From: a bacterium
Lineage (GTDB): Bacteria > Sysuimicrobiota > Sysuimicrobiia > Sysuimicrobiales > Segetimicrobiaceae
Assembly (NCBI GenBank): GCA_035703895.1
Contig: DASSXJ010000228.1
Span: 1 to 44,790, forward strand
Reading direction: 5' to 3'
Length of the DNA stretch: 44,790 nucleotides
Shown: piece by piece, positions 16,691 to 20,855 of the stretch
Numbering within the stretch: the first letter of the stretch is position 1
Layout of the letters: each line of letters begins with the position of its first letter
The notes under the pieces: model-generated
Database searches by the model: none
Seen by the model: only the letters and a program-made list of their open reading frames with translations
What the model was told of the DNA's origin: nothing
Translations under genes and position numbers: made by a program

Positions 16691-17908
16691 CTAGATGACT
16701 CCCAGAGATCGCAGCCGGGTGATCTCGTCGGAGCCCACCCCCAGATCCGTCAGCACGTCGGCCGTGTGTTCCCCCAGTCGCGGAGGAGGCCGACGGATCG
16801 ACCCGGGTGTCCCTGAGCACTTCACGGGAAGCCCCGGAATAGTGATGCGTCCGGCCGACGGATGGTCGACCTGCACCAGCATCTCCCGCGCGTGGACCTG
16901 CGGGTCCTCGACGATTTCGTCGACCGTGTAGATCGGCCCGCACGGTACACCGGCGGCCTGCAACGCCTCGAGCCACGCCGAGGCCGGGCGCGTCTGGAGC
17001 AGGGTTTCGAGCACCGGGATCAACTCGGCCCGGCTGCGGATCCGGTCGGGGTTCGTCCGGAAGCGTGGATCGTCGGCGAGCGCGACACCGGCAACCTCGC
17101 AGAACCGGCGGAAGAGCCGGTCGTTGCCCGTGCCGAGGGTGATGTAGCGCCCGTCGGCGCAGGCAAACGCCTGGTACGGCACGACGGTCGCGTGCGCAGA
17201 GCCTCGCCGGGGAGGAATCTCTCCGGATGTCAGGTAGATCCCGACGTAGTACGAAAGCCAGGAGATCTGCGCGTCCATCATGGAGACGTCGAGGACCTGG
17301 CCTGCGCCTGTGCGGCCGCGGGCAAGCAGCGCGAGGGTGATCGCATAGGCCGCGTACATGCCGCCGGCGATGTCGGCGATCGGGATGCCCACCCGCACTG
17401 GGGCGCCCCCCTCCTCGCCCGTCGTCCCCATCACGCCGCCCATCCCCTGCAGGATGAGGTCGAACGCAGACCGATCCCGGTAGGGTCCGGTCTGCCCGAA
17501 CCCGGAGATCGCGCAGTAGATGAGGCGCGGATTCCGCCGGCGGAGCACCTCCTCGCCGATTCCCAGCCGGCTCATCGTCCCGGGGGTGAAGTTTTCGACC
17601 AACACATCCGCCCGATCCGCCAGCTTCAAGAGGAGCGCGACCCCGTCGGGGTGGCGAAGGTTCAGCGTCACGCTGCGCTTGTTCCGGTTGACGCTCAGAA
17701 AGTAGATGCTCTCCCCCCCCGCGAACGGGGGTCCCCAAGCCCGCGCCCCATCACCCTCGCCCGGCGGCTCGACCTTGATGACATCGGCCCCGTAGTCGGC
17801 CAGCATCGCCGTGCCGAACGGACCCGCCATAAATCGCGTCAGATCGAGGACGCGGATGCCCTCCAACGGCCCCGCCCCATGGCTGCGCACAGCCGGCTCG
17901 TCGCTCAC
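16691..17908 (-). CDS. Family III (CaiB/BaiF) CoA-transferase
   Basis: A 405-residue enzyme moving CoA between carboxylic acids through an aspartyl-CoA thioester. It begins 'PLEGIRVLDLTRFMAGPFG', then 'YGADVIKVEPPGEGD', 'VNRNKRSVTLNL', 'ADVLVENFTPGTMSRLG', 'YCAISGFGQTGPYRDR', and 'GIPIADIAGGMYAAYAITLA', with the Asp of the family's catalytic position. The C-terminal part has 'GDRPRFRTNPDRIRSRAEL'-like and 'GVPCGPIYTVDEIVEDPQV' segments. The start is GTG 17908, with GAGGAG six bases upstream; earlier Met codons in frame lack this. Its nearness to gcdH suggests succinyl-CoA:glutarate or a related acid CoA-transfer, but formate/oxalate- or carnitine-type activity is not excluded. Confidence 0.9.
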   Translation of the reverse strand: MSDEPAVRSHGAGPLEGIRVLDLTRFMAGPFGTAMLADYGADVIKVEPPGEGDGARAWGPPFAGGESIYFLSVNRNKRSVTLNLRHPDGVALLLKLADRADVLVENFTPGTMSRLGIGEEVLRRRNPRLIYCAISGFGQTGPYRDRSAFDLILQGMGGVMGTTGEEGGAPVRVGIPIADIAGGMYAAYAITLALLARGRTGAGQVLDVSMMDAQISWLSYYVGIYLTSGEIPPRRGSAHATVVPYQAFACADGRYITLGTGNDRLFRRFCEVAGVALADDPRFRTNPDRIRSRAELIPVLETLLQTRPASAWLEALQAAGVPCGPIYTVDEIVEDPQVHAREMLVQVDHPSAGRITIPGLPVKCSGTPGSIRRPPPRLGEHTADVLTDLGVGSDEITRLRSLGVI

Positions 17909-17982
17909 ACACCTCTCCTCGGTTCCAGACATCGCGGGCACAAGCCCCATCATTCGACGTCACGGCTGGTGTTCATCTCCCG

Positions 17983-18023
17983 GAAAAAATACCGGCCGGC
18001 GGCACCGGGCGGTGCCGCCGGCC
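17983..18023 (-). terminator. Rho-independent terminator (minus strand)
   Basis: A perfect 13-bp stem, 17994-18006 (GGCCGGCGGCACC) with 18011-18023, and a 4-base loop. On the minus strand it is followed by TATTTTTTCC, giving a six-U run at 17989-17984. It would end the small transcript from the promoter at 18282-18309 and any read-through from the kinase operon, 75 bases before the CoA-transferase start. If termination is conditional it would be an attenuator for that gene. Confidence 0.85.
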
Positions 18024-18153
18024 TCCATCGTCTTCGCTACCTCGACTCAGCCCCCGTGGAGCGCTGCTCCACCTCGCGGGAGACGCATCTCCCTGATCGG
18101 CGGGAGGTCGAGGGTTTCATATGAGGTAGCGGGCCGAGAGTCCCGCTGCCCCG

Positions 18154-18222
18154 TTACTGCTTCGGGGGAGTCTCCCCCTGTGGATCAGTATTACGCTTCG
18201 ACAGACGGACGCGACGCCTCAT
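18154..18222 (-). CDS. 22-codon basic small ORF
   Basis: ATG 18222 to TAA 18154 encodes a very basic 22-residue peptide beginning MRRRVRLSKRNTDPQ and ending with Pro-Pro-Lys-Gln. An exceptionally good ribosome-binding site (GGGAGGAGG) stands six bases before the ATG, and a near-consensus promoter about 60 bases upstream. The codons before the stop fold into GGGGGAGTCTCCCCC. It has no run of a single regulatory amino acid apart from three consecutive Arg codons near the start, so it is not an obvious amino-acid attenuation leader, although Arg-dependent stalling is conceivable. It could be a translated small protein or a leader peptide coupling ribosome movement to downstream folding. No homologue is recognised. 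Confidence 0.5.
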   Translation of the reverse strand: MRRRVRLSKRNTDPQGETPPKQ

Positions 18223-18281
18223 CACCCGCCTCCTCCCTTGAGGATAGCAGTCGTCATGTGTGCCGATGTTCGTCACTTTCC

Positions 18282-18309
18282 ATTGTACCCCTCGCCACGA
18301 CCGTGTCAA
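18282..18309 (-). promoter_or_regulatory. Near-consensus sigma-70-type promoter (minus strand)
   Basis: On the minus strand TTGACA (18309-18304), a 16-base spacer and TACAAT (18287-18282). This is among the best promoter matches in the window. It lies in the gap just after the kinase stop and fires into the 22-codon ORF and the stem-loop array. Predicted start near 18275. Confidence 0.75.
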
Positions 18310-18319
18310 CACCGGAACA

Positions 18320-19291
18320 TTAGTGACGGAGCAGCACTTCCGCGATGAGGACTGCGACCGCCGTCCCGAGCGCGACCAACCCGAGAACGACGAGGGGGTG
18401 CCGAAGCAGATTCTCGCCCGGCGGGGCACCCAAGGGAGGATCGGGCCGCGAGAGCACCGTCATGTCGGCTGCGTCCGGATGCCGGAGCGCGTCAAGGAAG
18501 GCTCCCGCGTGCGGAAACCGCTCCTGTTTTCGCCGGCGCATCGCCGTCGCGATGATCGCCGCGATCGCCGGGGGCACCTCAGGCCGCAGCGTCGCCAGCG
18601 GTTCCGCGTCCATGTTGAGGTGCTGGTACATCGTGCTGAGGGGATTTGCGCTGCGGAACGGCGGCCGTCCCGACACTAGTTCATAGAAGATCAAGCCGAG
18701 CGCGTAGACGTCGGTCTCGGGGCCACCCCGCTCTCCGCGGATCTGCTCGGGGGCCATGTACTCCGGCGTCCCCACCAGCCCGGAGAACCCGCGCCACGTC
18801 ACCCGCGGCGCGCCGTCGAGCAGCGCGATCCCGAAATCGATGATCGTCACACGAACGTCGACCCTGACAAGAATGTTTTCGGGCTTCAGGTCGCGGTGGT
18901 ACACGTGGTGTTGATGGCAATAGGCAACCACTTCTGCGAGGTTGGTGACGATCTCAATCGCCTGCGGCACCGGGAGCGGGTGCGACTCACTCACGAAGTC
19001 CCGGAGGGGCCGCCCCTCCGTGTAATCCAGAACGAGATAAGGGGGGCGCGCATCTTCGCACGCTTCGATCAGCCGGGGCACCCCGGGATGGTCCAGGATA
19101 CGACCGATGGCCACCTCCCGGCGGAATCGCTCGTATGCCGCAACCTCGCCGAGTTGTGCGGGGTCGAGGAACTTGAGCACAACGGCGGCCCCGCTGCGCA
19201 GGTCTCGCCCCTGGAACACGGCGGCTTCGCCGCCATGTCCCAGCGGCCGCTCGACGACGAAATGACCGACCTGATCGCCAGGGCCCGGCAT
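18320..19291 (-). CDS. Membrane-anchored Ser/Thr protein kinase
   Basis: A Hanks-type kinase of 323 residues. Gly-rich loop 'LGHGGEAAVF' (17-26), ATP-anchoring Lys40 ('VVLKF'), catalytic loop 'YHRDLKPENIL' (Asp134), 'IIDFG' (Asp152), activation segment ending 'GTPEYMAPEQ', then 'SDVYALG'-equivalent 'ETDVYALGLIFYELVSGRPP'. A single C-terminal membrane segment (about 298-320, 'HPLVVLGLVALGTAVAVLI') leaves almost nothing outside, so there is no PASTA or other sensor domain. That differs from PknB and suggests an intracellular or membrane-associated input. It lies 21 bases after the PP2C gene; bacterial kinase and PP2C pairs usually act on the same substrates. No strong Shine-Dalgarno is seen. 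Confidence 0.93.
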   Translation of the reverse strand: MPGPGDQVGHFVVERPLGHGGEAAVFQGRDLRSGAAVVLKFLDPAQLGEVAAYERFRREVAIGRILDHPGVPRLIEACEDARPPYLVLDYTEGRPLRDFVSESHPLPVPQAIEIVTNLAEVVAYCHQHHVYHRDLKPENILVRVDVRVTIIDFGIALLDGAPRVTWRGFSGLVGTPEYMAPEQIRGERGGPETDVYALGLIFYELVSGRPPFRSANPLSTMYQHLNMDAEPLATLRPEVPPAIAAIIATAMRRRKQERFPHAGAFLDALRHPDAADMTVLSRPDPPLGAPPGENLLRHPLVVLGLVALGTAVAVLIAEVLLRH

Positions 19292-19312
19292 CGGGAGGCT
19301 CGTGTGAGGCGG

Positions 19313-20098
19313 TCAGCCGGTGATGCGGATCGCCAGCACGGTCAGATTGTCAAACCCACCCCGCCGGTTGGCTTCTCGAACGCAGGCCGCCGCCGCTGCG
19401 TCGGGGGGAAAGTTCGTGAAGGTGGCGCGGACGTCCTCTGGGGTCAGGTGTTCGAGCACACCGTCGGTCGCGAGGATGAAGCAATCGCCGCGCTGCGCCG
19501 GGCCGCTCCTGAGATCGACCGCAACCAAAATGTCCCCGCCGATCGTTCTCGTCAACAGGTGGCGATGCGGGTGGCGATCGGCACCCGGGGCGTCCACGAG
19601 GCCGAGGCGCCGCATCTCCTGGACGATTGTGTGGTCTCGGGTCAGCTGCCGAACCGCGCCGCCGCGGACCAGGAAGGCTTTGGAATCCCCGACGTGTCCG
19701 AGCCAGTACCGTCCGCCGCGGACGACGAGCGACGTCAGCGTGGTCTGCATCCCGGAGAGCGCGGGATGCCCCTCGCGAAGGTGATAGACGTGAAGGTTGG
19801 CCTGTTCGATCGCCCGGCGGAGGATCCGCCCGGGATCTCCTCGCAGGTTGAGGTAATATTCCTGAGCGACCGTGTGCGCGGCTTCCGCGCTCGCCACGGC
19901 TCCCCCGCCCGCTCCCCCGACGCCATCGGCGACGATGAACAGGCTCCCGCGGCTGGCGTGCAGGAGCGGATCTGTAGGGACTTCATAGCGAACATAGTCC
20001 TCGTTCTTCGGCCGGACCCGCCCGGGATCAGTCGCGCTGCCGACTTCCAGGCTCAGCGACTCGGTGGGACGAACAGGCGCGCGCGGGACCTGCTTCAC
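19313..20098 (-). CDS. PP2C-family Ser/Thr protein phosphatase
   Basis: A 261-residue soluble phosphatase of the PrpC/Stp type, probable antagonist of the neighbouring kinase. All metal-binding motifs are present: 'GRVRPKNEDYV' (Asp34), 'LFIVADGVGGAGGG' (Asp58), 'LGHVGDSKAFLVRGG', 'FILATDGVLEHLTPEDV' and 'GGFDNLTVLAIRI'. This contrasts with the degenerate SpoIIE-like protein at 40522. The start ATG overlaps the stop of the ANTAR regulator gene (ATGA), so the two are translationally coupled. Confidence 0.95.
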   Translation of the reverse strand: MKQVPRAPVRPTESLSLEVGSATDPGRVRPKNEDYVRYEVPTDPLLHASRGSLFIVADGVGGAGGGAVASAEAAHTVAQEYYLNLRGDPGRILRRAIEQANLHVYHLREGHPALSGMQTTLTSLVVRGGRYWLGHVGDSKAFLVRGGAVRQLTRDHTIVQEMRRLGLVDAPGADRHPHRHLLTRTIGGDILVAVDLRSGPAQRGDCFILATDGVLEHLTPEDVRATFTNFPPDAAAAACVREANRRGGFDNLTVLAIRITG

Positions 20099-20691
20099 CC
20101 CGTCTTGCCCTCCAGCGCGATGATCGCCTCAGCGATCTCGACGATCGACCTGCGGGAGCTCTGAGCGAGGCGGCGCAGGCGCGACGTCGCCTCCGCTTCC
20201 GTGAGCCGGTATCGATCGCGCAAGAGTTGGGTGGCCGCCTCGACCTGGTTCACCGTGCCACGATCAGCCCTCGCGGGGCGATCCGCAGAGGCGCGTCGGA
20301 GCCATATGAGCTCGGCAAACCGGGCGCGCGCCACCTCGATCGCGGGACCGATGTCCGACTCCCGCACCGGCTTCATCAAGTACGCCAGCACGCCGGCGTC
20401 GGCGGCCTCCTCCACCAAGCTGCGCTGGTTGTAGGCGGTCAGCACGATGATCGGCACCGGGTGCTCGGCCATGATCCGGCGGGTCGCCTCGAGCCCATCC
20501 ATCCCGGGCATCTTGATGTCCATGATGACGACGTCCGGATCGAGGGCGGCGACTTTCTCGACCGCGTCCTCGCCATCGGCGGCCTCGCCGACGACCCGAT
20601 AGCCGAGATCTTGCAGCATCGCCCGCATCCCCATCCGGATCAGCGCCTCGTCGTCGACCAACAAAACATCCCCGGCTCCCCGCTCAGTCAT
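20095..20691 (-). CDS. Response regulator with ANTAR RNA-binding domain
   Basis: A 198-residue protein. The N-terminal receiver has the acidic pair in 'LLVDDEALIRMGMRAML', the phospho-acceptor Asp58 in 'VVIMDIKMPGMDG', then 'IIVLTAYNQ' and 'AYLMKPVRES'. The C-terminus from about residue 145 is an ANTAR domain ('VEAATQLLRDRYRLTEAEAT', 'RLRRLAQSSRRSIVEIAEAI'). Known ANTAR regulators bind paired hairpins in leader RNAs and block transcription termination. It is the first gene of the phosphatase and kinase operon, and no histidine kinase is nearby, so the Ser/Thr kinase may be the input. A terminator-like hairpin lies 46-83 bases upstream of its start. Confidence 0.95.
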   Translation of the reverse strand: MTERGAGDVLLVDDEALIRMGMRAMLQDLGYRVVGEAADGEDAVEKVAALDPDVVIMDIKMPGMDGLEATRRIMAEHPVPIIVLTAYNQRSLVEEAADAGVLAYLMKPVRESDIGPAIEVARARFAELIWLRRASADRPARADRGTVNQVEAATQLLRDRYRLTEAEATSRLRRLAQSSRRSIVEIAEAIIALEGKTG

Positions 20692-20826: not shown

Positions 20827-20855
20827 TTGACAGTGAACCGGAGAGTCGCTACTAT
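20827..20855 (+). promoter_or_regulatory. Sigma-70-type promoter of the APC permease gene
   Basis: TTGACA at 20827-20832, exactly 17 bases of spacer, and TACTAT at 20850-20855 on the plus strand. It points at the APC permease that starts at 21010, giving a leader of about 150 bases. Confidence 0.75.

Follow-up and report, generated by a model that had tools for sequence, protein, structure and literature searches.

The window, as we call the whole stretch of DNA analysed here, is a contig of 44,790 nucleotides from a bacterium of the Segetimicrobiaceae. A Ser/Thr kinase gene (18320-19291) and a family III CoA-transferase gene (16691-17953), both assigned with Pfam, flank a compact minus-strand unit of about 330 bases; such a unit had been described in an earlier note on this DNA, and all of its parts were located there. 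From 5' to 3', it comprises a promoter (18309-18282), a ribosome-binding site, a 22-codon frame (18222-18154), a stem that we call P1, a three-way junction, a 13-bp hairpin, the bases GGTA and six T. The predicted transcript is about 290 bases long, and as a whole it folds more stably than 200 dinucleotide shuffles (z -3.67). The features are these:

18282..18309, minus strand: sigma-70-type promoter TTGACA-16-TACAAT, read from the sequence, with an aligned promoter in nine of nine homologues
18223..18275, minus strand: predicted 5' leader, its start placed by prediction, with ribosome-binding site AAGGGAGGAGG (18239-18229)
18154..18222, minus strand: 22-codon frame MRRRVRLSKRNTDPQGETPPKQ plus stop, of the same length and end in nine of nine, supported by pN/pS and a profile search (E 6.1e-14)
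18123..18152, minus strand: stem P1, 10 pairs, five with changes on both sides
18040..18113, minus strand: three-way junction domain closed by stem P2, supported by covariation and covariance model R1
18079..18092, minus strand: hairpin P3, often with a UGCG tetraloop, 100% of cells paired, three of five pairs changed on both sides
18056..18072, minus strand: hairpin P4, 7 bp here, seen in individual folds and imperfectly aligned between genera
17984..18023, minus strand: 3' hairpin with a perfect stem of 13 bp, then GGTA and six T, a probable terminator

The -35 hexamer TTGACA (18309-18304) starts 10 bases past the stop codon of the upstream kinase gene and is followed, after a 16-base spacer, by TACAAT (18287-18282), which confirms the near-consensus promoter that had been claimed. 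Among the nine homologous promoters TTGACA is invariant, the second hexamer is TACAAT, GACAAT or GAGAAT, and the spacer measures 16-18 bases. A promoter this strong is unusual for the lineage. Near-consensus sites number one to three per locus examined (12-45 kb each), with one at the unit in every homologue; that of the unit is one of three sites in the whole window scoring at least 10 of 12, and no second promoter-like site lies within 1.5 kb (0.1 +/- 0.3 in shuffles). The other two near-consensus promoters of the window are at 20827-20855 (plus strand, TTGACA-17-TACTAT) and 39597-39569 (minus strand, TTGACA-17-TAAAAT). Transcription probably starts about 7 bases past the -10 hexamer. The leader, measured to the ATG, is 51-72 bases long in the homologues, and a purine-rich ribosome-binding site is present in all nine. 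A start-codon hairpin that looked conserved by eye was rejected, being mostly no stronger than chance or than hairpins at other gene starts.

A DNA search of 12 genomes of Ca. Segetimicrobiaceae (Sysuimicrobiota), which are uncultured bacteria from soil, recovered the unit, whole or partial, in five. The profile built from those five peptides matched in nine genomes, once each (E 1.4e-14 to 1.6e-5), and found the unit in none of 31 other Sysuimicrobiota genomes (E <= 0.001). Covariance model R1, which describes the 3' part, hit the same nine places with 109-129 bits and everything else with at most 25 bits; since R1 was built from these nine copies, their scores are high by construction and the informative result is the lack of further copies. 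Loss of stems, promoter and terminator in relatives is what the earlier note had named as counting against the unit. The opposite was seen: in nine of the 12 family genomes, each with a single copy, the whole set of promoter, frame, P1, junction and 3' hairpin has been retained, and comparison of these copies shows the parts to be conserved. The sole near-complete family genome lacking the unit is G011, 96% complete and of the same genus as the window, in which other sequence stands between the kinase and CoA-transferase genes; the unit is therefore dispensable. In G010, a genome that is 68% complete, it was not found beside the acyl-CoA dehydrogenase gene. A mobile origin was considered and rejected: plasmids, phages and viral contigs gave no match, and the single copies sit in a shared neighbourhood.

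The 22-codon ORF noted previously was confirmed, with a ribosome-binding site before its ATG. It is exactly 22 codons long in all nine copies (one could begin a codon earlier) and would encode a basic peptide with the consensus MRRR.RLSRRNT...RETPPKQ. The C-terminus is E-T/R-P-P-K-x, with [T/R]-P-P-K-x-stop as the end in nine of nine, and residues M1, R2, S8, N11, T12, E17, P19, P20 and K21 are invariant (n = 9). Over all pairs, pN/pS is 0.58 in the proposed frame, and the two remaining frames give 1.72 and 1.20; column shuffles averaged 1.03 +/- 0.23 and fell as low as 0.58 in 2 of 500. These values indicate codon-level purifying selection on the putative peptide, a conservation at the amino-acid level that goes beyond what the earlier note had seen. 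We take this as good evidence that a peptide is translated, although with so short a frame its strength is moderate. Searches of Pfam and NCBIfam returned no match to the peptide other than one chance match at E 0.8. The perfect stems that had been reported are present in the window copy, but the one that lies within the frame, GGGGGAGACTCCCCC, has not been conserved: just two G-C pairs are left at this place in homologues.

The 5' arm of P1 starts one base past the stop codon in every copy, and the motif TRACGG is kept in all nine. P2 has seven pairs, five of them changed on both sides, and the inner part has four pairs, three changed on both sides; in P4, one of three aligned pairs is changed on both sides and 78% are paired. 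RNAalifold returned P1, the closed junction and the two hairpins. In the model alignment 90% of cells pair, and 17 of 31 pairs carry changes on both sides, which are the compensatory changes that the earlier note had proposed seeking in relatives. The covariation score is 0.454 against a shuffle mean of 0.268 (reached by 0 of 500 shuffles) and at most 0.179 for slid versions; the shuffles ignore relatedness, whereas the slides account for relatedness but lean to the predicted structure. By this comparison the predicted RNA helices covary. No long conserved unpaired stretch was found in alignments A4 and A5. Because no such stretch is invariant, we consider it most likely that a protein or the terminating ribosome binds the RNA part by its shape, rather than that this part base-pairs with a target.

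The selection on the frame would also fit a gene for a very small protein only, with a folded 3' part that just stabilises and ends the mRNA; indeed, a hairpin right after the stop codon together with a strong 3' hairpin would shield the message from 3' exonucleases. However, compensatory changes have preserved a three-way junction across genera, which exceeds the needs of a stability hairpin, and the mean pN/pS is just moderately low. We consider such a protein-only gene unlikely.

On one flank of the unit are an acyl-CoA dehydrogenase gene (Pfam) and genes resembling mutS, mutL and miaB by sequence reading; on the other are PMT_2-type glycosyltransferase and/or kinase, PP2C and ANTAR genes, with details that vary between genera. 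In the window, Ser/Thr kinase, PP2C phosphatase and ANTAR response-regulator genes follow in a row at 18320-20691 (Pfam). By sequence, such a row apparently also adjoins the unit at locus L053, and the three genes are possibly one signalling operon. The next downstream gene is co-directional with the unit in all nine genomes and varies with genus: it encodes a CoA-transferase in G000 and G008, an acyl-CoA dehydrogenase in G004, G005 and G007, and an NRAMP protein in G001, G002, G003 and G006 (identities from Pfam for representatives and from sequence for the others). In the six cases measured it starts 65-144 bases past the hairpin, and no promoter can be recognised before it. A leader would look like this, but the missing promoter tells nothing, since most genes of the lineage show none that can be recognised. 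Eight of nine genomes have an acyl-CoA dehydrogenase gene farther along this strand.

The junction, the hairpin and the gene behind them, NRAMP in four genomes, could suggest a metabolite-sensing riboswitch in front of acyl-CoA or metal-transport genes, with the junction as aptamer. We think this very improbable. The unit occurs once per genome, its first downstream genes are mutually unrelated, a translated frame precedes the aptamer position, and few unpaired bases are invariant. Moreover, the Rfam covariance-model search that had been suggested (Rfam 15) gave nothing above the gathering cut-off, nor any match at permissive thresholds, in the window or the eight homologues; the best sub-threshold matches, of about 17 bits, do not recur among homologues. 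The genome has its own copies of 6S RNA (RF00013, C315:10925-11130) and tmRNA (RF00023, C145:117-467) elsewhere, and both were rejected as identities for the unit. As a separate observation, 6S RNA was found in 8 of the 12 family genomes and in none of G004, G005 and G006 (genus g3; each 94-97% complete), where it may have been lost or have diverged too far for detection.

The 13-bp terminator with a six-U tail claimed for the window stands in part. The 13-bp hairpin (18023-17994) is perfect, but the six T (17989-17984) begin four bases (GGTA) after the stem, and it is therefore not a textbook terminator. An obvious U tract is absent in seven of the nine homologues, so that termination at the hairpin is uncertain. 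Perfect stems of at least 11 bp are uncommon, with 19 in about 190 kb, but eight of nine homologues have one at the 3' hairpin site; in the ninth, G003, the hairpin is imperfect. The hairpin sequences differ between genera, and their MAFFT alignment between genera is unreliable, so the hairpin was excluded from the covariance model. Transcription ends of the lineage may differ from the textbook form; the tmRNA and 6S genes of the family (loci L100-L116) mostly have no hairpin-plus-U terminator directly behind them. A perfect 18-bp hairpin also occurs inside a PMT_2-type glycosyltransferase frame (L049 10919-10959).

The layout of frame, hairpin and downstream gene brings to mind ribosome-controlled leaders, that is, an attenuator in which a pause of the ribosome at Pro-Pro-Lys or at the stop codon of a leader or arrest peptide opens P1 and alters downstream read-through. 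The fixed length of the frame, its conserved Pro-Pro end and the constant position of P1 are all as such a leader would have them, and ribosomes are known to stall at polyproline stretches (PMC5021804, PMC11611912). The downstream gene is always co-directional, usually after a short gap and with no visible promoter, and at the locus of G011 that lacks the unit (L096, G011:C13:50500-56000) a TACAAT box is found shortly upstream of the CoA-transferase gene, as if a leader had been excised. However, the conserved, mutually exclusive terminator and antiterminator of an attenuator were not found in these sequences. The 3' hairpin arm pairs no better with its own upstream sequence (-21.8 kcal/mol) than with swapped sequence from other genomes (-24.4 kcal/mol). 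Masking of P1, to imitate a ribosome standing at the stop codon, left the 3' hairpin intact in all homologues and brought out no alternative fold that is conserved. The first regulated gene would, moreover, differ between genera. Masking of the Shine-Dalgarno sequence by the 3' part was likewise rejected, since a genome's own sequences have little or no advantage in pairing over swapped ones.

TnaC, Erm and the ilv leaders are ribosome-controlled leader peptides. The unit shares with them, and with the ilvB-II motif of Corynebacterium (PMC10272879), a short frame of fixed length, a hairpin after the stop, an end hairpin and a downstream gene; unlike them, it has no antiterminator that we could find and no regulatory codon run except Pro-Pro, and its first downstream gene varies by genus. 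Therefore, given the changing downstream gene and with no antiterminator pairing found, we favour a stand-alone transcript over a conditional attenuator. The earlier note had offered an undescribed small RNA or a conditional attenuator, of which the discrete small-RNA gene is the better supported, the attenuator having no positive structural evidence. Nevertheless, the co-directional downstream genes, short gaps and missing U tracts leave the leader reading with substantial weight, and we hold it to be possible, if on the doubtful side. These points also speak against a stand-alone gene, as do the recurrent acyl-CoA dehydrogenase gene downstream and the loss in G011.

We suggest, with about even confidence, that the unit is a stand-alone, vertically inherited small gene that would combine a conserved peptide with a structured RNA. 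Transcription from a strong housekeeping-type promoter would stop at a GC-rich hairpin and give a short RNA of about 290 bases. Translation of the 5' half would yield the basic 22-residue peptide, and the 3' half would fold into P1, directly behind the stop codon, and the three-way junction. We infer that both products, the peptide and the folded RNA, have a function. Such a gene would resemble the dual-function small RNAs SgrS/SgrT (PMC4021124) and VcdRP/VcdP (PMC8672173), which are likewise short self-standing transcripts with their own promoter and end hairpin, a tiny frame and a conserved RNA part; on predicted transcription and translation, all nine copies have the promoter, end hairpin and conserved small frame. 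It differs from both in that no homology was found, in that no conserved unpaired base-pairing seed was seen, and in that its reading frame comes first with the folded part directly after. Under either reading, stand-alone gene or leader, the conserved Pro-Pro end and the fixed spacing from stop to P1 suggest that the terminating ribosome touches P1. More speculatively, peptide and junction could be one device, in which the Pro-Pro-Lys-stop end pauses the ribosome, P1 is held open and the junction senses or binds something; we give this little credence, but if true, Segetimicrobiaceae would have a ribosome-coupled RNA regulator of their own, of a kind not yet described.

The unit is real and represents a new family in which a conserved peptide is joined to a covarying RNA; no Rfam, Pfam or NCBIfam family matches it, in line with the earlier note, which knew of no such family. 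Like candidate RNAs that comparative genomics has found in bacteria and metagenomes (PMC2864571, PMC8632094, PMC11109978) it is intergenic, structured and covarying; unlike them it joins a conserved peptide to the structure, a comparison made via Rfam 15 families only. The family libraries searched recognise neither the peptide nor the RNA, so standard annotation overlooks units of this kind. An uncultured, little-described phylum has yielded a new peptide and RNA family, for which the comparative evidence is enough for testable predictions.
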